From the NCBI GenBank assembly GCA_002067745.1, contig MVRU01000019.1, forward strand, positions 1-40,155: 40,155 nucleotides of DNA. The letters are read 5' to 3'. The first letter of the stretch is position 1. The number at the start of each line of letters is the position of its first letter. This document shows positions 2,372 to 32,353 of the stretch, piece by piece. This DNA is from Syntrophus sp. PtaU1.Bin005 (GTDB lineage: Bacteria > Desulfobacterota > Syntrophia > Syntrophales > Syntrophaceae). Below the pieces are notes generated by a model. It had not been told where the DNA came from. It worked only from the letters and a program-made list of their open reading frames with translations, and made no database searches. The translations under genes were made by a program, and so were the position numbers.

Positions 2372-2806
2372 CAACCCAAATACAACCCGCGAAGGAAGAC
2401 ACCGTGCAAGGTGTTCCAAAGTCCCTTGAAGCTGAAACCACCATGGCATCAAGGTCATTTGCACTCCCTGATGATGCGGATCAGCATCCGGGAAAATTCG
2501 ACGGGTCATCTTTAAATGCTCCCGGAATCCCGCCGCTCAACCCTTTTCTTTTCAAGCCCTGCCCGACTTCACTCCAATTCCCCACACCGGCCCGCCTGAA
2601 TGCGTCAGTGTACGAAGCAGAACACCCTGATATTTCTCTGCAATCCCATCTCCCATACCGATAGAGTAGAACCTTTTGAGGTTGTTAAGTTCAACAACCT
2701 CCATCTGTCGCAGATCCTCCACGTGAAGGCGAAGAGGGTTGTTTACCAAACCTGATACCGTAAGTTTTTTGGGCATATATCTCGGGGCAGATATTTTTTC
2801 AGGCAT
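2357..2806 (-). pseudogene. molybdopterin-oxidoreductase-like gene, frameshifted remnant
   Basis: An 84-codon frame (2806 to 2552) begins MPEKISAPRYMPKKLTVSGL and continues with PLRLHVEDLRQMEVVELNN and EKYQGVLLRTL. This is the typical start of small sulfite-oxidase-like molybdopterin-binding proteins (x-V-x-G-L-V-x-x-P-x-x-L ... Y-x-G-V-L-L-R). The frame then ends early with VKSGRA. Another frame over the same bases reads TDAFRRAGVGNWSEVG, which would fit the expected continuation (an L-x-x-A-G-V-like block). It runs on with one internal stop to about 2357 near the modA motif. I read this as a decayed gene with at least one frameshift and one stop. It lies on the modA strand. Confidence 0.55.
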
Positions 2807-3027: not shown

Positions 3028-3180
3028 AACGATGTCCTGAATGTTCGGGACGCCATTGGAAAGGTTTCTTTCCGATATGGATGTTTTGTTGCTTAAAATC
3101 ATTAAAATTAATTGGAAGATATTCGATCGTGATCTGTGTTTTTTTACTGTCAAAATTTAATACTGATGGAGGTAAGGGTC

Positions 3181-3390
3181 ATGAAACTGAGTGCAAGGAA
3201 TGTTTTGAGCGTTACCGTGTCAAGCGTCAAGAAGGGGGCTGTAAATACCGAAGTCGTCATCGCTCTGAAGAGCGGACCGTCTCTCGCGGCGGTGATCACC
3301 AACACGAGCGCCGACAACCTGGCCCTGAAAGACGGGGCGGCTGCCTTTGCCATCATCAAGGCAACCAGCATCATTGTAGGCGCAGAATGA
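3181..3390 (+). CDS. mop: molbindin Mop, molybdate-binding protein
   Basis: This is a 69-residue single Mop/TOBE domain (MKLSARNVLSVTVSSVKKGA ... AAVITNTSADNLALKDG ... AAFAIIKATSIIVGAE). Molbindins assemble into cytoplasmic hexamers that bind molybdate or tungstate oxyanions and are thought to store or buffer them. The length is exactly the family norm. The ATG at 3181 is chosen because GGAGGTAAGG lies just upstream; a longer frame back to 3136 has no such site. The gene is monocistronic and convergent with xdhC, and a strong hairpin follows 9 bp after its stop. It fits the local molybdenum theme with modAB and xdhC. Confidence 0.93.
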   Translation: MKLSARNVLSVTVSSVKKGAVNTEVVIALKSGPSLAAVITNTSADNLALKDGAAAFAIIKATSIIVGAE

Positions 3391-4526: not shown

Positions 4527-5318
4527 TCAATGCGCCAAGGCGGCAATCCGCTCCCGGAGTTCATCCAGGTCGCTCGCCATATTGAGGCTTCGAAGCGCCC
4601 CGGACGGGGCGTTGGCGATACTTCCCCCACCCCGCAACGCATAGCCGGACATGAGCTCCACATCGTCGATAGAAGTAATGCCCAGTACATCAACGCCATA
4701 ACTGAAGAGCACGGGGCTGGCGGGTACGGTGGGACCCATGAGGATCCTCATCCGGGCGGACGGCGTCCGGCGGATCACGGCTTCGAGGGTTTCGTTGACA
4801 ACGGTCAAGCCGGTCATAAAGACCAGTTCGGCGTCCTGGAGCGCCTGGTCAGCCTGCTCCCAATGGATATCCCCCGGGCGGGGAAAAAGCTCCACAATCG
4901 TGACGGGATAGCCCTGCTCCCGCCACAGGGCCGCTTTTTTGAAGTAGCCGATAAAACAACTCGGTACGCGGGCTGTTATGGCCGGCTCGAAGAGTTCCAT
5001 GGCCCCTCCTTCAATCGTCACGGGAGGTTCCGGGAGCAGGGACTTGAGGCAAGCCATTCCGACACTGCGCCTGAGGTTCTTCCGGCTTGCCAGGAGTTCG
5101 AGGGCTGCCGCCCGGGCGGGCCGGCCGATCCAATCCCCCATCCAGGCATCCATGCCGATCGGCTCGTTAAAACCGGGCATGTTATGAAAGTAGGTCGAAA
5201 GAGACCATTTCCCGGTCTTGACCAGGACCCAGTTGACATAAATTCTGATATCCTCGATCACCGCCGCCGGATCGGCATCGGCGGCCATGCGCCGGATCAT
5301 CTCTTCATAGAATCCCAA
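4527..5318 (-). CDS. DUF364 (putative heavy-metal chelation) protein, copy 1
   Basis: A 263-residue protein of the DUF364/DUF4213 family. The first known structure of this family joined an enolase-like N-terminal fold with a Rossmann-like domain and led to a proposed heavy-metal chelation role; no reaction is established. Here the C-terminal half carries the family signatures AELVFMTGLTVVNETLEAVI and MGPTVPASPVLFSYGVDVLG. The start appears to be TTG 5318, with AAAGAGG upstream; an ATG at 5300 has no ribosome site. It lies between ubiD and xdhC on one strand. Two further DUF364 genes occur in the TonB operon. A link to molybdenum or another metal centre is inferred from context. Confidence 0.8.
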   Translation of the reverse strand: MGFYEEMIRRMAADADPAAVIEDIRIYVNWVLVKTGKWSLSTYFHNMPGFNEPIGMDAWMGDWIGRPARAAALELLASRKNLRRSVGMACLKSLLPEPPVTIEGGAMELFEPAITARVPSCFIGYFKKAALWREQGYPVTIVELFPRPGDIHWEQADQALQDAELVFMTGLTVVNETLEAVIRRTPSARMRILMGPTVPASPVLFSYGVDVLGITSIDDVELMSGYALRGGGSIANAPSGALRSLNMASDLDELRERIAALAH

Positions 5319-5484: not shown

Positions 5485-6930
5485 CTATTGGATCACAAAC
5501 TTCCCCAGATCCACATCCTTGAATTTCACCCGTTCAAAGGAAGAGGTGCGGGGATACGGGGCCGTTGCATCCACGCCGACCTTGGTGACCAGGCCGTCCT
5601 CAACCATGGGATTCAGGATATGGCCGGGCTGATCTTTCAGGACGATAAATCCCTTCTTGGCGTTGAAGCGCGTCGTAATCGCCCATTCGACGTCGATCGG
5701 GTCGTAGATATTGACATCGTCGTCCACGGCCACAACCCACTGGAGGGATGGAAAGGCCTTGAACGCCTCCTGGATGGCCTCGTTCTGAATGCCCTCCCTG
5801 CTCTTGGTCAGCTGGAGAACGGCGCCATAAAACCCGCATCCCCCCGGGGGAAGGTAAACCGCTTTAAGGTCAGGAACCTTCTGTTTCACCGTAACGAAGA
5901 TCTTCGCCTCGGCGGTGAAGCCGACGGCATTCCAGACTTCCTGGCCCGAGAGCAGGGAATGGAAGACAGGATTCTTCCGATGGGTGATCGCCTTGACCCG
6001 CATGACCCAGCGCTTGCCCTGTTTTCCATAATATCCCGTCACCTCGGCAAAGGGGCCTTCCGTCTCCCGGACGTGAGGGATGATTTCCGCTTCGATCACG
6101 AACTGCGCATCGGCAAAGGCAGGGACATCGACGGTCTGCGCCTTGATGAAATGGATCGGCCTGCCGACGATATGGCTTGCAATGGTCGCCTTTCCGGGCC
6201 CCGTTCCCGGTACGGAAGAAACCAGCCAGGGGGCGAGCCCGACGCCGTTGTTGATGGTCACCTGAAGGGGTTTCCCCTGCTTTTCCATCGTTTCAAGGTA
6301 GGCCCCCAGGTGCCTTCCCGGATCGATCAGGAAGGTAAGGCGATCCTTGCCGGTGATCATGATCCGGTGGATGGAGATGTTGGGCTTTCCCGTCGCCGGA
6401 TCATTCACCACCACCACGGAAGAGTCGAAATAGGGTCCGCCGTCCTGCAGGGCATGGACCGGGGCGGGAAGATCGTAGAGGTTGACACCCTTGGTCACGA
6501 CAACCTCGTTGGCCGGTCCCTTATCGAGAACCTTCGACGGCAGCGCCTCCTTGTCCTTTCTCCACGCACCGATGGCCTGGCCTATGACGAAGGGGACCTT
6601 CTCCTTGGGGACGTTGAAGAGGGAGCCCACCGTATCGCGGTTCCACAGAAGGCCCATGAATACCGGGAAGGCGCTCCCCTTGACCTTTTCAAAAAGGACG
6701 CACTTCTTCCCCTCGAACTTCTTTGCAATGCCGGCGAGCTCATGGACCGGATCGACCTCCGATTTGACGCGGACGAGATTCCCCGTCTTTTCCAGGTAGT
6801 CGATGCAGGCGTTCAGGTCCACGAGACGATCGGCCTTATGCGGATCAGGCGCGGCCTGGGCGGGCCAGCCGGGGGAACTCAAAAAGAAGAAAAAAACAAG
6901 GGGCACAAACAGTCTGATGGTCCACTTCAT
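5485..6930 (-). CDS. UbiD-family prenyl-FMN decarboxylase with signal peptide
   Basis: This 481-residue protein matches UbiD enzymes, which (de)carboxylate aromatic or unsaturated acids with prenylated FMN. The catalytic E-x4-E pair is in TEGPFAEVTGYYG (E291, E296) and the matching Arg is probably R189 in SIHRIM, about 100 residues earlier as in known UbiD proteins. The surprise is the N-terminus: MKWTIRLFVPLVFFFFLSSP followed by GWPAQA is a classical Sec signal peptide without twin arginines. The usual UbiD start (DLNACIDYLEKTGNLVRVKS) follows directly after it, and no Met lies between that could give a cytosolic form. Ribosome site AAAGGA precedes ATG 6930. Its ubiX and LpdD-like partners are divergent. 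The substrate is unknown. Confidence 0.88.
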   Translation of the reverse strand: MKWTIRLFVPLVFFFFLSSPGWPAQAAPDPHKADRLVDLNACIDYLEKTGNLVRVKSEVDPVHELAGIAKKFEGKKCVLFEKVKGSAFPVFMGLLWNRDTVGSLFNVPKEKVPFVIGQAIGAWRKDKEALPSKVLDKGPANEVVVTKGVNLYDLPAPVHALQDGGPYFDSSVVVVNDPATGKPNISIHRIMITGKDRLTFLIDPGRHLGAYLETMEKQGKPLQVTINNGVGLAPWLVSSVPGTGPGKATIASHIVGRPIHFIKAQTVDVPAFADAQFVIEAEIIPHVRETEGPFAEVTGYYGKQGKRWVMRVKAITHRKNPVFHSLLSGQEVWNAVGFTAEAKIFVTVKQKVPDLKAVYLPPGGCGFYGAVLQLTKSREGIQNEAIQEAFKAFPSLQWVVAVDDDVNIYDPIDVEWAITTRFNAKKGFIVLKDQPGHILNPMVEDGLVTKVGVDATAPYPRTSSFERVKFKDVDLGKFVIQ

Positions 6931-7071
6931 GGTCGTAATCCTTTCTCTTTTTTTTTGGGCATTTTTCTTCTCTCAGGATGGGAGCCTGTCAGGGATAAGG
7001 CCATCCAGGCCGCTTTCAGCGAAGTAAGATATTCATAGATGACACACGGCCAATTGTAAACAGAAAAAGTC

Positions 7072-7175: not shown

Positions 7176-7607
7176 TTGCAGGCAACAAGAACTTTGAACG
7201 GGATCCTCTTCAGGACGGAAGAAGGCCGGTATGATCTGGATGCCTCGGCGCAGTGGATCGGACAGGATCTGCTCGTCTCGATCTGGGGAGGCGAACGGCC
7301 GCACATCGGAGCCGTCGCGCTGGCCCAGCCGCGGCCGAGCCTTCGAGACCCCGGCAGGACCGGCGCCACCGCCTCCGTGCTCTGCGTGGTGGGCCACAAG
7401 GAAGACGAAGTCGTAAAAAAGGCGTCTGAACATCTCTCCTCGGTCTTCAAAACGCGGGTCGTCGTCACGGCCGGCATCCACTGGGACAACCTCGACGGCG
7501 AAGGAATCGGCCTGGTTCTGCGGAACATCGATTTGCTGACGGAATACATCGTGCAGTACCTCGAGGAAGATCTGAACGTCCCGGATGAAGAAAGGGGAAA
7601 GGTCTGA
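7176..7607 (+). CDS. LpdD-like prenylated-flavin chaperone
   Basis: This 143-residue protein belongs to the small LpdD-like family, subunit D of gallate decarboxylase-type systems, thought to help prenyl-FMN loading or maturation of UbiD enzymes. Family blocks are GGERPHIGAVALAQPRPSL, TGATASVLCVVGHKEDEVV and VVVTAGIHWDNLD. Translation starts at TTG 7176: GAAGGGGGA lies 7 bases before it and no ATG is near. ubiX follows after 3 bp, so both are made together and face the ubiD gene. The context supports a role in activating the UbiD homologue, although that protein seems to be exported. Confidence 0.85.
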   Translation: MQATRTLNGILFRTEEGRYDLDASAQWIGQDLLVSIWGGERPHIGAVALAQPRPSLRDPGRTGATASVLCVVGHKEDEVVKKASEHLSSVFKTRVVVTAGIHWDNLDGEGIGLVLRNIDLLTEYIVQYLEEDLNVPDEERGKV

Positions 7608-7610
7608 AGA

Positions 7611-8174
7611 ATGGCAAAGCGGATTGTGATCGGCATAACCGGCGCCAGCGGCGTCATCTACGGGATCAGGATGCTGGAAGTCCTCAGAAAGATGGACGTG
7701 GAAACCCACCTGATCGTCTCCGAGTCCGGAAGGAAGACTATTGAAATCGAAACGCCCTTTCAGTTCTCCCAGGTAACGGCCCTTGCTTCCCGCTGGTATG
7801 ACAACCGGGATATGGCCGCGGCCCTGGCGAGTGGCTCATTCCTGACCTGCGGCATGGTCGTCATCCCCTGTTCCATCAAGACCCTTTCCGGCATCGCCCA
7901 TTCGTATACGGAGAATCTCCTGATCCGTGCCGCCGATGTCACCCTGAAAGAAAAACGCAGACTGATTCTCGTGGTGAGAGAAACGCCGCTTCATCTCGGC
8001 CATCTCAGGCTTATGGAGGCGGCAGCGGAGTGCGGCGCCCAGATCCTGCCCCCCATTCCTTCGTTCTATCACCAGCCGTTGAGCATCGATGACCTGATTC
8101 ATCAGACCATCGGAAAAATTCTCGACTCCCTCGGCATCGAACACGATCTGTTCCGGAGATGGGAAGGCGGATGA
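7611..8174 (+). CDS. ubiX: UbiX flavin prenyltransferase
   Basis: This 187-residue enzyme joins dimethylallyl phosphate to reduced FMN to make prenyl-FMN, the UbiD cofactor, in the cytoplasm. Signature segments are IVIGITGASGVIYGIRMLEV, TCGMVVIPCSIKTLSGIAHS and VVRETPLHLGHLRLM. The length is typical of UbiX/Pad1. It starts 3 bp after the LpdD-like gene. An ATG overlaps its stop (8171-8173), which I take as the original start of the next gene. Confidence 0.95.
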   Translation: MAKRIVIGITGASGVIYGIRMLEVLRKMDVETHLIVSESGRKTIEIETPFQFSQVTALASRWYDNRDMAAALASGSFLTCGMVVIPCSIKTLSGIAHSYTENLLIRAADVTLKEKRRLILVVRETPLHLGHLRLMEAAAECGAQILPPIPSFYHQPLSIDDLIHQTIGKILDSLGIEHDLFRRWEGG

Positions 8175-9375
8175 GCCGGGCGAACAGCAGGCAACAGCGG
8201 CGGCAGGCCGCGGATCAAGGACCCCCCCCGTGAGGAATGTCCCGCTTTATGTCGTCAAATTCCTGATCACGTCCTACACGAGCATCCTGGCGCCTCTCCT
8301 TCCCCTTTTCATGACGGAGATGAAGCTTTCCCTCACGGAAACAGGCGCCCTGGTCTCCGTCTTCTCGCTCTTCAATTCGGTGCTGCAACCCATCTTCGGC
8401 TGGCTTGAAGACCGGCTGGGATATTATCCGTTCCTGTGTCTTTCCCCTCTATGGGTCGGGTTCTGGATGGGCGGGCTGGGTTCCGCTCCGAATTACGGAT
8501 TTCTGGTCCTGTTCCTGCTCCTTGCCGGAATCGGGATCTGCGCCTTCCATCCGGCGTCCTTTTCCGCCGTGAAGGCCATCCATCCCGACGGCGGATCCCT
8601 GGTCATCTCCTTCCTTCTCCTGGCTACTTCGCTGGGGTTTGTTGCCGGCCCCTCCCTCATTTCCCTCTTCGTTACGCACTTCGGTATGGAAAAGTTTTAC
8701 CTGATTTCTTTTCCCGGCATCCTGGCCACCGTGTGGCTTTTGAAAATTCTCCCGAATCCCGGGAGCCGCCAGCGGTTGCAGGCGAAAGGCTTCTCTTATC
8801 CCCTTGCGAAGATTCTTCCCCCGATTTTACCCCTTTTCCTCTTTGCCCTCGCCGTCAGCATCATCGCCATGAACCTCTATGCCTTTCTGCCCATCCTTCT
8901 GCGCCAGCACGGGGCATCCGTAACTAGAACAGGCCTCTTCCTCTCTCTGTTGTCCCTGGGCTGCGCCCTCGGTCCGCTGGCCGGCAGCCTCTCGGCCCGC
9001 AAGACGGGGCGATTCTTCGTGATTCTTCTCTCCTCCATCCCCCCCATTGTTCTCCTGCTGCTTTTCAACGCGATGCCGCCGGCAGGCGCCGCACAGCTGC
9101 TCATGGTGTTTCTGCTGGGGTTTTTCCTGATGCTCCCCTTTTCCCTTTTGATCAGCATGGCGCAGGAACGGGCCCCCGGATATACGGGAACGGTCTCCTC
9201 TTTTCTGGGCGGATTCGTCTGGGGATGTGGCGGGGTTCTCGTTTTTCTCTTCGCAAAAATCGCGGAATCCGTACCCCTGGAATGGCTGCTGGGGGGACTG
9301 GCCCTCTTTCCCTTCTTCACCCTTGTGCTGGTACTGGCGGACCCCTCGTTCCGAAGGCAACGGGAAGATCCCTGA
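8171..9375 (+). CDS. MFS transporter, with probable frameshift in a C8 tract at its start
   Basis: As read, the frame starts at GTG 8230 and gives 381 residues with about twelve hydrophobic segments. It is an MFS protein resembling the fosmidomycin-resistance (Fsr) branch, with FGWLEDRLGYYPF as the loop 2-3 signature. An ATG at 8171 overlaps the ubiX stop in the usual ATGA fashion and opens a 20-codon frame that ends just after a run of eight C (8222-8229). One more C would join it to the transporter (MSRANSRQQRRQAADQGPPP then VRNVP). Either the run is mis-sequenced, or it slips, or translation uses the GTG with no good ribosome site. It may move the substrate or product of the UbiD enzyme; the substrate is unknown. 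Confidence 0.8.
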
Positions 9376-18062: not shown

Positions 18063-18830
18063 TCATTCCGCTCCCGCAAGCCTCCGGACGATATCGTCGT
18101 AATCCCTGATGATGCTCACAAAGCGAACGCCGCCATTCTTCTTGAGCTGAAGAAAAGAAGCCCCTTCGCTCACCGATTTCAGCACGACGTCCTTTTCCGT
18201 CACCACGCTCCCGGCGAGCATGTCGATGCCGTAATCGAAGAGCACCTCGGAGAGGGGCGTCGATGGCCCGAGAAGCATCTTGACGCTCCCTGTTCTGCAG
18301 AGCTTGAGAATGCCGGGGAGGGTATCGTTGATGAGGGTCGTACTGGAGATGACGACGATGTCCGACTGCGGGATAAGATCATTTCCGCTCTCTTCCGGAT
18401 AATCTCCCACCCTGGGCCGCTTTTCTATGATCCAGAGATTTTTGGCCTCTCTGGCCAGCGCATCGAGATAGGGGAAATGACCGATGACGGAGATATTCTT
18501 CCCCTTGCCCAGATCCTTGACCAGTTTCAGCCCCTCGACATCGGAATATCGGTTCGGGTCCACATCGATGAGGGAATTGATGACGGCTAGTCCCAGGGAT
18601 GCCCTTGCCATGCCGCCGCTGAGACCGTAGCGCGCCAGGCCGAGGGCGCTCATCTCCGTAAGATTGCCCTCCAGTCCCCCTCCATCCTCGTGGCTGCAGC
18701 CCCCCTGCGCCATGGTCGAGGCCAGACCGCAGCGCCTGCTCACCACGGCGGTCCAGGAGAGCCCTCTTCTCACCTCCTGGACCGGTGCATCTTCCTTGAC
18801 GGTTTTGAGAATATTCTCCAGAATGTCCAT
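18063..18830 (-). CDS. DUF364 (putative heavy-metal chelation) protein, copy 2
   Basis: A 255-residue DUF364/DUF4213 protein, predicted cytoplasmic because it has no signal peptide. The N-terminal domain shows EVRRGLSWTAVVSRRCGLAS and an HEDGG segment; the Rossmann part shows ISVIGHFPYLDALAREAKNL, SDIVVISSTTLINDTLPGIL and LLGPSTPLSEVLFDYGIDML. Ribosome site AAGGAG precedes ATG 18830 by 8 bases. It lies between exbD and the first binding protein, so it is built into the uptake operon. Its activity is not known; metal or chelate handling is proposed from the family structure and this context. Confidence 0.85.
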   Translation of the reverse strand: MDILENILKTVKEDAPVQEVRRGLSWTAVVSRRCGLASTMAQGGCSHEDGGGLEGNLTEMSALGLARYGLSGGMARASLGLAVINSLIDVDPNRYSDVEGLKLVKDLGKGKNISVIGHFPYLDALAREAKNLWIIEKRPRVGDYPEESGNDLIPQSDIVVISSTTLINDTLPGILKLCRTGSVKMLLGPSTPLSEVLFDYGIDMLAGSVVTEKDVVLKSVSEGASFLQLKKNGGVRFVSIIRDYDDIVRRLAGAE

Positions 18831-22489: not shown

Positions 22490-23074
22490 TCAACCTTCCG
22501 TCTTTACGCAATAATACTTCTTTTTCTCAAAGCATGGCCTGCAGAGCGTTGCCCCCTCACCGTTCATCTCCCGCCCATCGAGAACATCTTCCCCGCAAAG
22601 GGCGCACCGACAGCGGCGGACGGGCTTGCCGGGCATGTCTTCGGAACGCAGAGGGACTTCGACCTCGGTGACGGACAAAAGCTTCTCTTCGCTGAGGCCT
22701 CCGAAGTCGGTTTCACTTCCGCCGTCTTCGCCGTCCTCTCTTTTGTGTTTGACTGTCACCCGCACCGCTTTTTCCGTTTCCAGATTTACAAAGGTTGCCG
22801 CCATCTTCCCGTAATCGAGGACCTTCATGGTTCTTTTTCCCGGTCTGCATCCGGTCAAGGCCATGATCGCATCCGTCGCGCAGCGATCGATTTCCACAAA
22901 GACCATCAATTTTTTCCCATCCGCCCCCTTGGGATCCGCAATGCCCAGTTTTCGCAGGGCACTCATGGTCATCCTCGTTCCGATCTGAATGCCGCCGCAG
23001 ATGTCTCCATGAAAGCGTCCCGCCTCTTCCAGCAGTATGGCGTACTGATCCCTAGCCTGTTGCTCTTCGGTCAT
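22490..23074 (-). CDS. FmdE domain protein with zinc ribbon
   Basis: A 194-residue soluble protein. Its N-terminal FmdE domain (EEAGRFHGDICGGIQIGTRM, then EIDRCATDAIMALTGCRPGK) is named after a gene in molybdenum formylmethanofuran dehydrogenase operons; its function is not settled. The C-terminus has a four-Cys ribbon, CALC (157-160) and CRPC (178-181). The first Cys motif reads H-G-D-I-C where many relatives have H-G-H-x-C. It overlaps the DUF364 gene upstream by 23 bases. It is likely a cytoplasmic metal-handling or regulatory protein of the uptake system. Confidence 0.88.
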   Translation of the reverse strand: MTEEQQARDQYAILLEEAGRFHGDICGGIQIGTRMTMSALRKLGIADPKGADGKKLMVFVEIDRCATDAIMALTGCRPGKRTMKVLDYGKMAATFVNLETEKAVRVTVKHKREDGEDGGSETDFGGLSEEKLLSVTEVEVPLRSEDMPGKPVRRCRCALCGEDVLDGREMNGEGATLCRPCFEKKKYYCVKTEG

Positions 23075-23939
23075 TGTCTCTCCTCGTTAATTGTTCGATC
23101 CGTTCCTCGTTGAGCACATTGATCTTTTTGAAGCAGCGGCCGAAAAGCCGATAGGCGCCGCCTCCCTCGGCAATGATCTCCAAAGCCGCATCGCTGTCCG
23201 TCACGATGGCGGTTCCGACCAGGGCCACCCTGCGCCGGAAGAGGGGCCCCGGGACAAAGCCCGCCGTTGGTCCCGCAACGGCCACGACGGCCTCTCGCGG
23301 AACAAGCTGGAGGAGAGACTCAATCGTACCGTTGGCGACGGTCGCCCCGGTAAAAACGGCCGTCTCGCACTGCGCCAGGGTTTTCGCCGTATGCTCCGGA
23401 GAAACAAATTCCCCACAGGCCGATTCGACTTCGCTCCGACTTTCCTTTTTGTAATCAATGACTTGAATTTTCCCGGCCCCCAGTTTCTTCAGGCGTTTCA
23501 GGAGTGGAATGATCGCCCCCACCATGCAGATCCGCCGCCCGGCAAAAAGATGCGAGACATCCGAGAGGTCCGTGTTCTCCGCCAGAACATATCGTTCCTC
23601 CCGGAAAAGGGGCACGGAGAGGGCATTGATCGCCGCCAGCCGAAGGATATGGGCAAAGGGACTTGACAGGGTACCGGACAAAACGTCCTGTACAGGCATC
23701 CCGGAAATGGGAGGGAAATCTTCCCGCAGAATCTGCCGGCCTGCATCCGCCACCGTTTCGGGCGGCGTGTAGGCAACCCCTCCGGAACCGTTGGAGAGTT
23801 TTACGCCCGTAAAAAAAACGCCGACCACCAGCCTCTCAACAAAGAGAGATTCCATGGCGGCTCCATAATGACAGCGGAGAACATCCGCTGCTTCGTTAAG
23901 GATGGACAATGAATTGCTTTGATTAAAATGACCGGTCAC
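23052..23939 (-). CDS. DUF364 family protein, copy 3, first gene of the uptake operon
   Basis: A 295-residue protein of the DUF364 type, longer and more divergent than the other two. Matching parts are FVERLVVGVFFTGVKLSNGS, MVGAIIPLLKRLKKLGAGKI, ETAVFTGATVANGTIESLLQ and VAVAGPTAGFVPGPLFRRRV. I chose GTG 23939 (VTGHFNQSNSLSILNEAADV) because GGGGAGGAGA lies just before it; the frame is open back to 24131, but the extra residues look unlike the family. It overlaps fmdE by 23 bases. It leads the operon that ends with the receptor. Confidence 0.82.
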   Translation of the reverse strand: MTGHFNQSNSLSILNEAADVLRCHYGAAMESLFVERLVVGVFFTGVKLSNGSGGVAYTPPETVADAGRQILREDFPPISGMPVQDVLSGTLSSPFAHILRLAAINALSVPLFREERYVLAENTDLSDVSHLFAGRRICMVGAIIPLLKRLKKLGAGKIQVIDYKKESRSEVESACGEFVSPEHTAKTLAQCETAVFTGATVANGTIESLLQLVPREAVVAVAGPTAGFVPGPLFRRRVALVGTAIVTDSDAALEIIAEGGGAYRLFGRCFKKINVLNEERIEQLTRRDNDRRATG

Positions 23940-24126
23940 ACTCTCCTCCCCTGCAGATTTCTTTACATCGCTGAACCTGACCGACGATTTCACACACCCC
24001 TTTACCCCTGGCATCCGCCGTTCTCCTGGACGACGACAGGAAGTGTCCCGTTTCGCCGATTTGACGGCATACCTTCCTTCATCACTCTCGTTTGGGAAAA
24101 AAGGCTGAATCGTCCATGCAGCGCAT

Positions 24127-24194
24127 AGCATATGCGGTCTTTAATATATGTGCCGTTGGGCATATGCTTTCTCGCGCATAATGTCAAGCATATT
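24127..24194 (-). promoter_or_regulatory. candidate promoter with four GCATA-type repeats
   Basis: AGCATATGC (24127-24135) and GCATATGCT (24160-24168) form an inverted repeat, followed by GCATAAT (24176-24182) and GCATATT (24188-24194). On the minus strand TTGACA (24187-24182) falls exactly between the last two repeats, and TATGCC (24164-24159) lies 17 bp further, inside the second repeat. This arrangement looks like an operator over a promoter about 190 bp before the first gene. Similar words occur before modA and mop. Confidence 0.45.
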
Positions 24195-28543: not shown

Positions 28544-31500
28544 TTAACATCCCATCCTCTTTCTTATTCCGAGGACGGCGACAATCCCGGATCCCAGGAA
28601 CCAGAAAGCCGCCGGAATGGGTACGGCGTTTCCGTGGGCGGTCAGGATCACATCCTTGCCGTCATAGATACTCCATGTAAAATCAATGAATGCCGAGTTG
28701 TCGGAGATGGAGGCAAAATCGCCTAGAATTCCCGATGAGGTCAGAACCGTGAAGGTGTCGCCGTCAGAAATCATCGCATTCGACAGGACATAAATCGCAA
28801 GAGCGCCGCCCAGACTTGCCGAGCCGTTCACGTCAAGGAGAGAGTAATTGCCAGGACCTGAATTGAGAAGCTGAATCGCCAGGGTTCCATACTCCGATTG
28901 CTCATAACTTCCATGAATGGTCAGGGTCCCGGGGGAGTTTCCGGGAGCAACGGTACCTCCGCTATTGATTACGCTTGCCGTAATGCTTCCCGTTCCCTTC
29001 AGGATCCCGCCATTGATCGCCACGCTGCTCGCTGAAAGCGTGCCATCAACCGTCGTGATCCCGGCGCTCTGGGTGTAATCCTGCAGGCTGCCCGCGGCGC
29101 CGACCTGGAAATCGCTGCCCGTTCCGAAGCTCATCTGCCCGGCATTGCTGAACGCTCCGGCCGTGGTGAAATCCCGCCCGTTCTTGATGGTGAAGTCCCC
29201 GGCCGCCGCATTGGTTGCAAAGCCCTTCAGGGCATCGGTATTGTCGGCATAGCGGAGAACGGCGGATGTCGGCCCATCCATCACGATTGTCGCTGCGTTG
29301 GTTACGATACCCGCCGTAGCAATGGGAAGTTTGATGGTGCCGGCCGCGTAGTACGTGCCGCCGGTCAGCGTGCTGCTCCCGTAGTTTTTCAATCCATCCA
29401 ATACAGCCAGCGTCGCACCGCTTTCGGCGCGGAGGGTTCCCCGGTTGTCAAGCAACTTGGCGTTGGGATTGATGTACAGAGAGGCGCCGGCATTGTTGGC
29501 CACAATGGTCCCCTTGTTGACGACGCCCATGTTGTTCTGGCCGATCCAGCCGGAGCCCTGGATTGTATGATCCGTATCGTTGGTGAGAACAAAATTGCCG
29601 TCGGAAGAGCTGATCCGGCTCCGTTGAGCCGTGTTGCCCGGATTCATGACCAGCGTCCCCGAACCGGTCAGGGTCACACTGGCGCTGTTCAGGGTGAAGA
29701 GGGTGTCGCTCCCGTTGCCGGCAATCGTCATCGTCCCGGAATTGGTAAGAGTGTTCCGCAGGTAGGTATTGGTGCCGTCCGATCCCTGGAACGAGGAACC
29801 GGAGGAAAGGGCGATCCCGTCAATCGTTCCGCTGTTGAGGGTCGCGATCACACCGCCGCCGGTCGTGGTGAAGGTGCCCCCCTTCACCATGGCGCCGTCC
29901 ACAAGGCCGACATAAGAGCCGCTCCCCTCTGCAAGGATGAGCCCCTTGGTATTGTCGAAGTAGCCGTTCATGAGATGAAGGCCGGCACCGGCCGTCGCCT
30001 TGAAGGTCCCTTCATTTACGGCATCCCTGCTGTTCACATCGATGTACAGAGGGGCGCCGGCATTGGTCGCCGCAATGGTCCCCTTGTTGACGATGCCCAT
30101 GTTGTTCTGGCCGATCCAGCCGGAGCCCTGGATTGTATGATCCGTATCGTTGGTGAGAACGAAATTGCCGTCGGAAGAGCTGATCCGGCTCCGTTGAGCC
30201 GAATTGCCCGGATTCATGACCAGCGTCCCCGAACCGGTCAGGGTCACACTGGCGCTGTTCAGGGTGAAGAGGGTATTGCTCCCGTTGCCGGCAATCGTCA
30301 TCGTCCCGGAATTGGTAAGGGTGTTCCGCAGGTAGGTATTGGTGCCGTCCGATCCCTGGAACGAGGAACCGGAGGAAAGGGCGATTCCGTCAATCGTTCC
30401 GCTGTTGAGGGTCGCGATCACACCGCCGCCGGTCGTGGTGAAGGTGCCCCCCTTCACCATGGCGCCGTCCACAAGGCCGACATAAGAGCCGCTCCCCTCT
30501 GCAAGGATGAGCCCCTTGGTATTGTCGAAGTAGCCGTTCATGAGATGAAGGCCGGCACCGGCCGTCGCCTTGAAGGTCCCTTCATTTACGGCATCCCTGC
30601 TGTTCACATCGATGTACAGAGGGGCGCCGGCATTGGTCGCCGCAATGGTCCCCTTGTTGACGAGTCCCATGTTGTTCTCGCCGACCCAGCCGGAGCCCAG
30701 GATCGTATGATCCGTATCGTTGGTGAGAACGAAATTGCCGTTGGTGGAACTGATCCGGCTCCGCTGTGCCGAATTGCCCGGATTCATAACCAACGTCCCC
30801 GAACCGGTCAGGGTCACACCGGCGCTGTCGACATAGAAACGGGTATCACTGCCGTTGCCGACAATCGTCATCGTCCCGGAATTGGTAAGAGTGTTTTGCA
30901 GATAGGTGTTGGTGCCGTCCCAGCCCTGAAACGAGGAACCGGAGGAAAGGGCGATTCCGTCAATCGTTCCGCTGTTGAGGGTCGCGATCACGCCGCCGTT
31001 GGTCGTGGTGAAGGTTCCCCCCTCCACTTCGGCACCTTCCCTGAGACCGACATAGGAACCGGCACCGTCGGCAAGGATCAAACCGGTGGCATTGTCGAAC
31101 GCCCGGCCGACGAGATGAAGACCGGCTCCATCTGTTGCCTTGAGGGTTCCTTCATTTACTGCATCCACAGCGCTCAGCAAGATGTAGAGGGGACCGGCCG
31201 TGCTATTCGCCACAATGGTTCCCCTGTTGACGAGCCCCATGTTGCCCTCCCCGATGTAACCGGCACCCATGATGGTATGGTTCGTGTCGTTGGTGAGGAC
31301 ATAGTTGCTGTTGGTGGAGCTGATCCGGCTTCGCTGCGCCGAATTGCCCGGATTGAGGACCAGCTTTCCCGCACCGGTCAGGATCACATCGGCGCTGTTG
31401 ACGTAGAACCGGGTATCGATCCCGTTGCCGGCAATCGTCATCGTCCCGGAATTGGTAATGGTTTTTCGCAGATAGGTGTTGGTGCCGTCCCAGCCCTGAA

Positions 31501-32353
31501 ACGAGGAACCGGAGGAAAGGGTGATCCCGTCAATCGTTCCGCTGTTGAGGGTCGCGATCACACCGCCGTTGGTCGTGGTGAAGGTTCCTCCCTTCACTTC
31601 GGCGCCTTCCCTGAGACCGACATAGGAATCGGCTCCGTCGGCGAGAATCAAACCCGTGGCATTGTCGAACGTCCGGCCGACGAGATGAAGGCCGGCGCCG
31701 CCCGTCGCTTTGAGGGTCCCTTCATTCACAGCCCCCGCAGCGTTCAGGAAGATGTATAGGGGACCGGCCGTGTTATTCGCCACAATGGTTCCCCGGTTGA
31801 CGAGCCCCATGTTGCCCTCCCCGATGTAACCGGCACCCATGATGGTATGGTTCGTGTCGTTGGTGAGGACATAGTTGATGTTGGTGGAACCGATCCGGCT
31901 TCGCTGAGCCGAATTGCCCGGATCGAGAATCAGGGTGCCGAAACCCGTCAGGGTCACATTGGGGCTGCCGACATAAAACCTGGTGTCAGTCCCGTTTCCG
32001 GCGATCCTGATCGTCCCGTCGTTGGTGACGATCCCTGTCCCGCCTGAGATTGAAAAAGACGTCCCGTCCTGTACGATAAGTCCGTTACCCGAAGCAAGCG
32101 TCAGGTTTTCAACAGCCACATTGATGTTGCTCGTCACAGTGGATGTGCCGTCGATGATGAAAGCGTTGTATTTTCCGTTAGGAACCATCCCGATGTCCCA
32201 ATAGGCCGGATTGTTCCAGACACCATCTCCACCCAACGACCATGTGGCGTTCGTTGCGGCGGCCGCCTGGCCGGAGATGATCCACAGCCAGAATAGCAGA
32301 AGAAACAAAACCGGGCTTAAGGCCCCACCCCTTTTCCTTAACATACCCTTCAT
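28544..32353 (-). CDS. large repeat surface protein with VPIPAA/PEP-CTERM-like sorting signal
   Basis: A 1269-residue exported protein. It has a signal peptide (LSPVLFLLLFWLWIISGQAA), then a start typical of passenger repeats (WSLGGDGVWNNPAYWDIG). Four full 190-residue units and a partial fifth follow, with recurring GTMTIAGNG, NPGNSAQRSRISS, FVLTNDTDHTI and VIATLNSGTIDGIALSSGSS. A non-repeat region has APGNSPGTLTIHGSY, typical of autotransporter-like beta-helix ends. The C-terminus is VPIPAAFWFLGSGIVAVLGI followed by RKR: motif, hydrophobic helix and basic tail as in PEP-CTERM proteins cut by exosortase. No autotransporter barrel is present. It may be an adhesin or biofilm matrix protein. 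No exosortase gene is in the window. Confidence 0.85.
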   Translation of the reverse strand: MKGMLRKRGGALSPVLFLLLFWLWIISGQAAAATNATWSLGGDGVWNNPAYWDIGMVPNGKYNAFIIDGTSTVTSNINVAVENLTLASGNGLIVQDGTSFSISGGTGIVTNDGTIRIAGNGTDTRFYVGSPNVTLTGFGTLILDPGNSAQRSRIGSTNINYVLTNDTNHTIMGAGYIGEGNMGLVNRGTIVANNTAGPLYIFLNAAGAVNEGTLKATGGAGLHLVGRTFDNATGLILADGADSYVGLREGAEVKGGTFTTTNGGVIATLNSGTIDGITLSSGSSFQGWDGTNTYLRKTITNSGTMTIAGNGIDTRFYVNSADVILTGAGKLVLNPGNSAQRSRISSTNSNYVLTNDTNHTIMGAGYIGEGNMGLVNRGTIVANSTAGPLYILLSAVDAVNEGTLKATDGAGLHLVGRAFDNATGLILADGAGSYVGLREGAEVEGGTFTTTNGGVIATLNSGTIDGIALSSGSSFQGWDGTNTYLQNTLTNSGTMTIVGNGSDTRFYVDSAGVTLTGSGTLVMNPGNSAQRSRISSTNGNFVLTNDTDHTILGSGWVGENNMGLVNKGTIAATNAGAPLYIDVNSRDAVNEGTFKATAGAGLHLMNGYFDNTKGLILAEGSGSYVGLVDGAMVKGGTFTTTGGGVIATLNSGTIDGIALSSGSSFQGSDGTNTYLRNTLTNSGTMTIAGNGSNTLFTLNSASVTLTGSGTLVMNPGNSAQRSRISSSDGNFVLTNDTDHTIQGSGWIGQNNMGIVNKGTIAATNAGAPLYIDVNSRDAVNEGTFKATAGAGLHLMNGYFDNTKGLILAEGSGSYVGLVDGAMVKGGTFTTTGGGVIATLNSGTIDGIALSSGSSFQGSDGTNTYLRNTLTNSGTMTIAGNGSDTLFTLNSASVTLTGSGTLVMNPGNTAQRSRISSSDGNFVLTNDTDHTIQGSGWIGQNNMGVVNKGTIVANNAGASLYINPNAKLLDNRGTLRAESGATLAVLDGLKNYGSSTLTGGTYYAAGTIKLPIATAGIVTNAATIVMDGPTSAVLRYADNTDALKGFATNAAAGDFTIKNGRDFTTAGAFSNAGQMSFGTGSDFQVGAAGSLQDYTQSAGITTVDGTLSASSVAINGGILKGTGSITASVINSGGTVAPGNSPGTLTIHGSYEQSEYGTLAIQLLNSGPGNYSLLDVNGSASLGGALAIYVLSNAMISDGDTFTVLTSSGILGDFASISDNSAFIDFTWSIYDGKDVILTAHGNAVPIPAAFWFLGSGIVAVLGIRKRMGC
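29440..32010 (-). repeat. tandem 570-bp repeats within the surface protein gene
   Basis: The same words recur every 570 bp exactly: CAATCGTTCCGCTGTTGAGG begins at 29821, 30391, 30961 and 31531, and a GTTGCCGGCAATCGTCAT-type word falls at about 29711, 30281, 30851, 31421 and 31991. Four units are complete and one is partial. About 285 bases at 29807-30093 look identical to 30377-30663, which points to recent duplication or gene conversion. Confidence 0.9.

Follow-up and report, generated by a model that had tools for sequence, protein, structure and literature searches.

A UbiD-family protein with a predicted Sec signal peptide, encoded beside ubiX and an lpdD-like gene in Syntrophus

Introduction

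In the literature consulted, UbiD enzymes receive their prenylated flavin cofactor (prFMN) from UbiX or through LpdD, both of which lack export signals. LpdD binds prFMNH2 and helps to activate apo-UbiD (PMC10865409). In the indole-3-carboxylate decarboxylase AnInD of Arthrobacter nicotianae (7p9q), residue R155, the catalytic E266 and a conserved E(D)-R-E network have been named (PMC8988006). Hydroxyarylic acid decarboxylases of the LpdBCD / VdcBCD type are encoded with ubiX and an LpdD-type gene beside ubiD, and this is also the arrangement in the window analysed here, a stretch of 40,155 nucleotides from Syntrophus sp. PtaU1.Bin005 (contig MVRU01000019.1). The window UbiD differs from that type in carrying a predicted export signal, in being divergent from lpdD-ubiX, and in scoring 255.5 of 650 bits, short of the cut-off, against the VdcC/LpdC-type C subunit model (NCBIfam NF041204).

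Results

A full-length UbiD-family gene

The original prediction placed a UbiD homologue with a Sec-type signal at positions 5485-6930, and the open reading frame there, on the minus strand, keeps those coordinates.

5485-6930, minus strand: ubiD-family gene, 481 aa, with a predicted N-terminal Sec-type signal peptide (open reading frame, Pfam, TIGR00148, best PDB match AnInD)

The product contains the UbiD_N (PF20695, residues 43-119), UbiD (PF01977, 136-330) and UbiD_C (PF20696, 337-455) domains and passes the TIGR00148 cut-off (275 bits against 244.85). Among solved structures AnInD 7p9q is nearest (E 6.6e-105, query residues 38-480), and R189, E291 and E296 align with AnInD R155, E261 and E266, so that the E(D)-R-E ionic network is present and the E291/E296 pair is kept, as had been claimed. 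R189 and E280 do not vary across an alignment of 30 diverse UbiDs, and E291 hardly does. An AF2 model based on a 30-sequence alignment has a mean pLDDT of 92, with residues 6-23 below 50, and outside these residues it is a confident UbiD fold when compared with 7p9q and 6h6v; single-sequence AF2 gave a pLDDT of 38, and the alignment-based model was used. AnInD is the best match by sequence and by fold, with a structural alignment of TM 0.84/0.88 at 41% identity, although its deposited chain aligns from residue 5 and has no leader, whereas the window UbiD adds about 37 residues that include the signal. Judged by modelled fold, motif and family score, the gene product is a full-length UbiD. A promoter and terminator scan gave nothing over shuffled expectation. 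Elsewhere in the window, a 1269-aa open reading frame (28544-32353, minus strand) has no Pfam match above the curated cut-off.

Signal peptide and translation start

Three features at the 5' end of the gene are considered here together with L002, a close relative described below.

6853-6930, minus strand: signal-peptide coding part, residues 1-26, predicted cleavage after AQA (feature scoring; counterpart in L002)
6939-6944, minus strand: ribosome-binding site AAAGGA before the ATG (duplex of -5.4 kcal/mol with the anti-Shine-Dalgarno)
6820-6822, minus strand: GTG codon 37, a possible cytosolic start, unconserved (GTT in L002; codon comparison)

Signal features were scored by our own criteria, namely n-region charge, hydropathy and the -3/-1 motif. 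The protein begins with MKWTIRLFVPLVFFFFLSSPGWPAQA up to the predicted cleavage site and continues with APDPHKADRLVDL, with MKWTIRLFVPLVFFFFLSSPGWPAQAAPDPHKADRLV ahead of the UbiD domain, which begins near residue 38. The n-region has a charge of +2, the leader includes an 18-residue run free of D, E, K, R, H, N and Q, and an AQA motif precedes Ala27, providing small residues at -3 and -1. The maximum 12-residue Kyte-Doolittle value of the leader (2.62) resembles that of ModA, a member of an exported family encoded in the same window (2.88), as against 1.32 or less near the start of signal-less UbiDs. Hydrophobicity alone was dropped as a test because cytosolic UbiX also scores 2.12, and the combined features were used. 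A twin-arginine motif is absent from the n-regions of both the window UbiD and L002. By these features the window UbiD has a 26-residue signal peptide of the Sec type. Its charge distribution and AXA site fit a cleaved signal better than an anchor, and the charge distribution together with the -3/-1 motif makes a cytosolic, anchored catalytic domain unlikely.

The claim that the gene offers no cytosolic start stands in part. No Met codon lies in frame ahead of the UbiD domain, but the window gene has GTG (Val37) as codon 37, precisely where UbiD proteins usually begin. Shine-Dalgarno pairing there is weak (-3.8) and weaker than at the ATG. GTG37 was rejected as the true start because the codon is not conserved in L002; it is weighed below as a rival account.

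The modA and ubiD genes (minus-strand starts 2270 and 6930) begin alike, with MKNWTIKLF and MKWTIRLF and similar DNA from the ribosome site on. The local DNA similarity is 38 against a maximum of 26 in codon shuffles (0/500), for a pair chosen by eye; modA was not among the matches in a genome search with the UbiD 5' end. In view of that search, of the eye-picked pair and of the different signal in L002, we do not claim that the signal (shared MK-WTI-[RK]-LF) was captured from nearby modA, and the resemblance may reflect chance or convergence.

A counterpart in another family of the order

L002 is encoded on JACQWR010000015.1, a locus equivalent to G013:C4, in a genome assigned to a different family of this order. 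It is 82% identical to the window UbiD overall and 86% over the domain. Its signal, MKISARWLLIFVFLLVATMPLGVSA with predicted cleavage before an A, is likewise Sec-type but differs from that of the window, the two sharing 31% of residues. The ribosome site before the L002 ATG is the stronger of the two (-8.2), and the only other starts in L002 fall inside the signal and pair poorly (-2.2). Between the two domains dN is 0.087 and dS 1.53 (ratio 0.057), compared with a dN/dS of about 0.5 in the signal. The UbiD domain is under strong purifying selection, and a divergent signal before a constrained domain is what is usually seen where a signal is maintained for its properties. The 2.7-Mb genome G013 has 15 places matching UbiD, one of them with a signal peptide, and no LpdD match; its signal-bearing locus lies behind Tct-type transporter genes, a FAD / 2Fe-2S fumarate-reductase-like pair and an NMT1-like protein.

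Signal-bearing UbiDs form a narrow clade

Relatives were searched in 155 genomes of the class, 395 across the phylum and four class-level sets (258, 23, 17 and 12 genomes), and N-termini were compared for some 60 UbiD genes, including a few fragments. Signal peptides are absent from L041 (G310, 66%), which starts MESLHVDPQPKPEDLNNRLVDL, from L042 (G399, 64%), which starts MASDSSSYTRAYPCSPDMRSAQRLIDL, from the 43-51% relatives L043, L044, L045, L050 and L003, and from the 14 other UbiDs of G013. A scan of viral contigs found no relatives of the window UbiD. One relative of the same order (G027, 49%) has MAQQKIQKTEEITAHNAHPEFGLDRRNFIKGSMALGIGVLLTPLSGREAAAAP before its UbiD domain, a predicted Tat-type leader with the twin-arginine motif DRRNFIK.

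L065:3-620 (G027:C17), minus strand: UbiD preceded by a Tat-type leader (DRRNFIK ... AAA), with ubiX and an lpdD-type gene upstream

In G027, ubiX, lpdD and ubiD follow one another on a single strand, downstream of dxs. This ubiD is cut by the contig end, a C-terminal piece lies on another contig, and an internal ATG near the domain start is also present. TatC is present in G000, G013 and G027.

In the tree the two Sec-type proteins are monophyletic (100/100) with L041 and L042 around them (100/98), and a ten-row clade (100/100) holds all of these together with the Tat-type row, which fills only 31% of columns and is not next to the Sec pair. The original prediction had looked to an alignment for a signal-bearing clade and had taken close homologues lacking the extension as evidence against it. 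Such a clade exists, but since the 64-66% homologues are without a signal and only the 82% one has a Sec signal, the signal is, as judged from these N-termini, a derived feature of a narrow clade rather than a trait of the family; the objection is thus half borne out. The Tat leader in G027 is apparently a separate gain, and an export signal would have been gained at least once, and probably twice, within one small clade. The case for exported UbiDs is based on two metagenome-type genes with a Sec signal and one with a Tat leader.

Gene neighbourhood and cofactor supply

Three genes run divergently from ubiD.

7176-7607, plus strand: LpdD-like prFMNH2 chaperone gene, start codon uncertain, no signal peptide (PF21758, 1.8e-35; LpdD 8pzh, 6.1e-07, residues 11-130)
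7611-8174, plus strand: ubiX, flavin prenyltransferase, no signal peptide (PRK06029/TIGR00421 over cut-offs; UbiX 6m8t, 3e-55)
8230-9375, plus strand: MFS transporter gene downstream of ubiX (PF07690, 1.1e-31)

PF21758 is named as a proteasome-assembly-chaperone-like family, and the protein at 7176-7607 is LpdD-like by its 8pzh match. The genome (99.6% complete, 165 contigs) has one UbiD match and, by genome search, one dedicated UbiX, that at 7611-8174; a further flavoprotein-family match lies in a 445-aa frame of CoaBC size, which we read as CoaBC. Because UbiX and the LpdD-like protein are without signals and the genome has a single UbiD, the cofactor would be inside and the enzyme addressed outside: prFMN is predicted to be made in the cytoplasm while its sole evident client is addressed to Sec. 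The proposed cytoplasmic source of the cofactor is therefore upheld, and the delivery problem is genuine if UbiD is exported. That the MFS protein exports prFMN would be a guess, and carriage of substrate or product is equally possible. The cytosolic relative in G384 adjoins TRAP transporter genes, and organic-acid uptake is the common theme of these ubiD surroundings. TonB and a TonB-dependent receptor are encoded within the window, so an outer membrane is present.

The window also holds genes for ModA/ModB, XdhC, TonB, ExbB/ExbD-like proteins, the TonB-dependent receptor and periplasmic binding proteins, as well as three DUF4213/DUF364 genes (putative heavy-metal chelation; 4527-5318, 18063-18830 and 23052-24131, all minus strand), and it is possibly a metal or molybdate/tungstate uptake region. 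A short open reading frame near modAB (3136-3390, plus strand; MKLSARNVLSVTVSSVKKGAVNTEVVIALKSG...) looks like a molbindin/Mop domain, and an 84-aa frame (2552-2806, minus strand) resembles the start of a molybdopterin-binding oxidoreductase domain, of which it may be a remnant.

Discussion

We favour, with a probability of about 0.55, the reading that the window gene encodes a periplasmic prFMN-dependent (de)carboxylase of a (hetero)aromatic acid, exported through Sec as the apoprotein in a Gram-negative host. UbiX and the LpdD-type chaperone would make and hold prFMNH2 in the cytoplasm, while the unfolded UbiD would pass through Sec, lose its signal at the AQA site and fold outside; prFMN would reach it by a separate route across the inner membrane, and the exported enzyme would act on the acid before this is taken up, or on material that stays outside. 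Export, periplasmic folding, delivery of prFMN across the membrane and activity there are all steps that we infer. In favour are the signal features and ribosome site, the architecture of L002 without a cytosolic GTG, the kept catalytic residues, the domain dN/dS, the Tat-type cousin beside ubiX and lpdD, the lone UbiD/UbiX pair and the outer membrane. Against it are the signal-less 64-66% relatives, the prospect that GTG37 gives some cytosolic protein, and the need for a non-covalent, oxygen-sensitive prFMN to cross the membrane by an undescribed route; the lack of an LpdD match in G013 speaks against a fixed chaperone partnership. More tentatively, prFMN may be exported separately, perhaps via a dedicated carrier, with the holoenzyme assembled and matured in the periplasm, and another lineage may have used a Tat leader instead. 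In the Tat-type cousin, export of a folded, loaded enzyme could be a way round the cofactor problem. The original prediction had offered periplasmic delivery or an anchor; a cleaved signal is favoured over the anchor, and this Tat route for a folded holoenzyme had not been considered.

There are possible functional parallels for a flavoprotein located outside the cytoplasm and supplied with flavin there, as the window UbiD may be, in the Shewanella fumarate/urocanate reductases and in ApbE-flavinylated proteins. Secreted flavin cofactors reportedly serve fumarate and urocanate respiration by Shewanella (Kees et al. 2019, listed among the references of PMC8238504). These periplasmic flavoenzymes differ in using FAD or FMN rather than prFMN and in having unrelated folds, and ApbE attaches its flavin covalently. 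ApbE uses flavin outside the cytoplasm (PMC12052999).

Two other accounts are each improbable, and about equally so. UbiD might be exported through Sec without being a periplasmic prFMN enzyme, remaining apo or binding FMN and serving another role such as ligand binding, which would account for the absence of a known prFMN route to the periplasm and for a G013 genome with no LpdD; yet the fold and R189, E291 and E296 are kept in a domain under strong purifying selection, and lpdD and ubiX adjoin the gene in a genome where no other UbiD client was found. Alternatively, translation from GTG37 or inefficient export might leave enough active enzyme inside, in keeping with the position of that codon exactly at the usual UbiD start, its partial Shine-Dalgarno pairing (-3.8), the signal-less UbiX and LpdD, and the 64-66% relatives without a signal. 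The equivalent L002 codon is GTT, however; the other starts available in L002 all fall within the signal and pair poorly (-2.2); and the retention of a signal in both genomes despite divergence to 31% identity is unlike the behaviour of a useless leader.

An uncleaved anchor that holds the protein at the inner membrane and leaves its catalytic domain on the periplasmic side, or with lower likelihood on the cytoplasmic side, is distinctly less probable again: the hydrophobic run is long in both the window UbiD and L002, but both proteins have -3/-1 motifs at the right distance, and the positive n-region and neutral flank predict an inside N-terminus and an outside domain in any case. Least probable of all, with hardly any weight, is that the N-terminal extension is an artefact of assembly or sequencing. 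The genome is a draft of 165 contigs, but the extension and domain lie in one open frame, and the same architecture, with a ribosome site before the ATG, recurs in an independent genome of another family. A local sequencing error, raised in the original prediction as a possible source of the N-terminal part, is very unlikely because L002 has its own signal and ribosome site.

Searches of the open-licence literature gave no account of a UbiD that is exported, periplasmic or Tat-borne. The signal-bearing UbiDs would be a rare branch of a flavin-cofactor enzyme family, and an exported UbiD, as these leaders predict, would surprise the specialist and is directly testable. Export of UbiD would mean one of two things: passage of prFMN, or of its complex with a protein, across the inner membrane, or loading of UbiDs once they have been secreted. 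This genome gives a clean test, as its one UbiX apparently has a lone, exported UbiD as client. With an exported UbiD, (de)carboxylation of aromatic acids would take place beyond the inner membrane and would affect uptake and proton balance.
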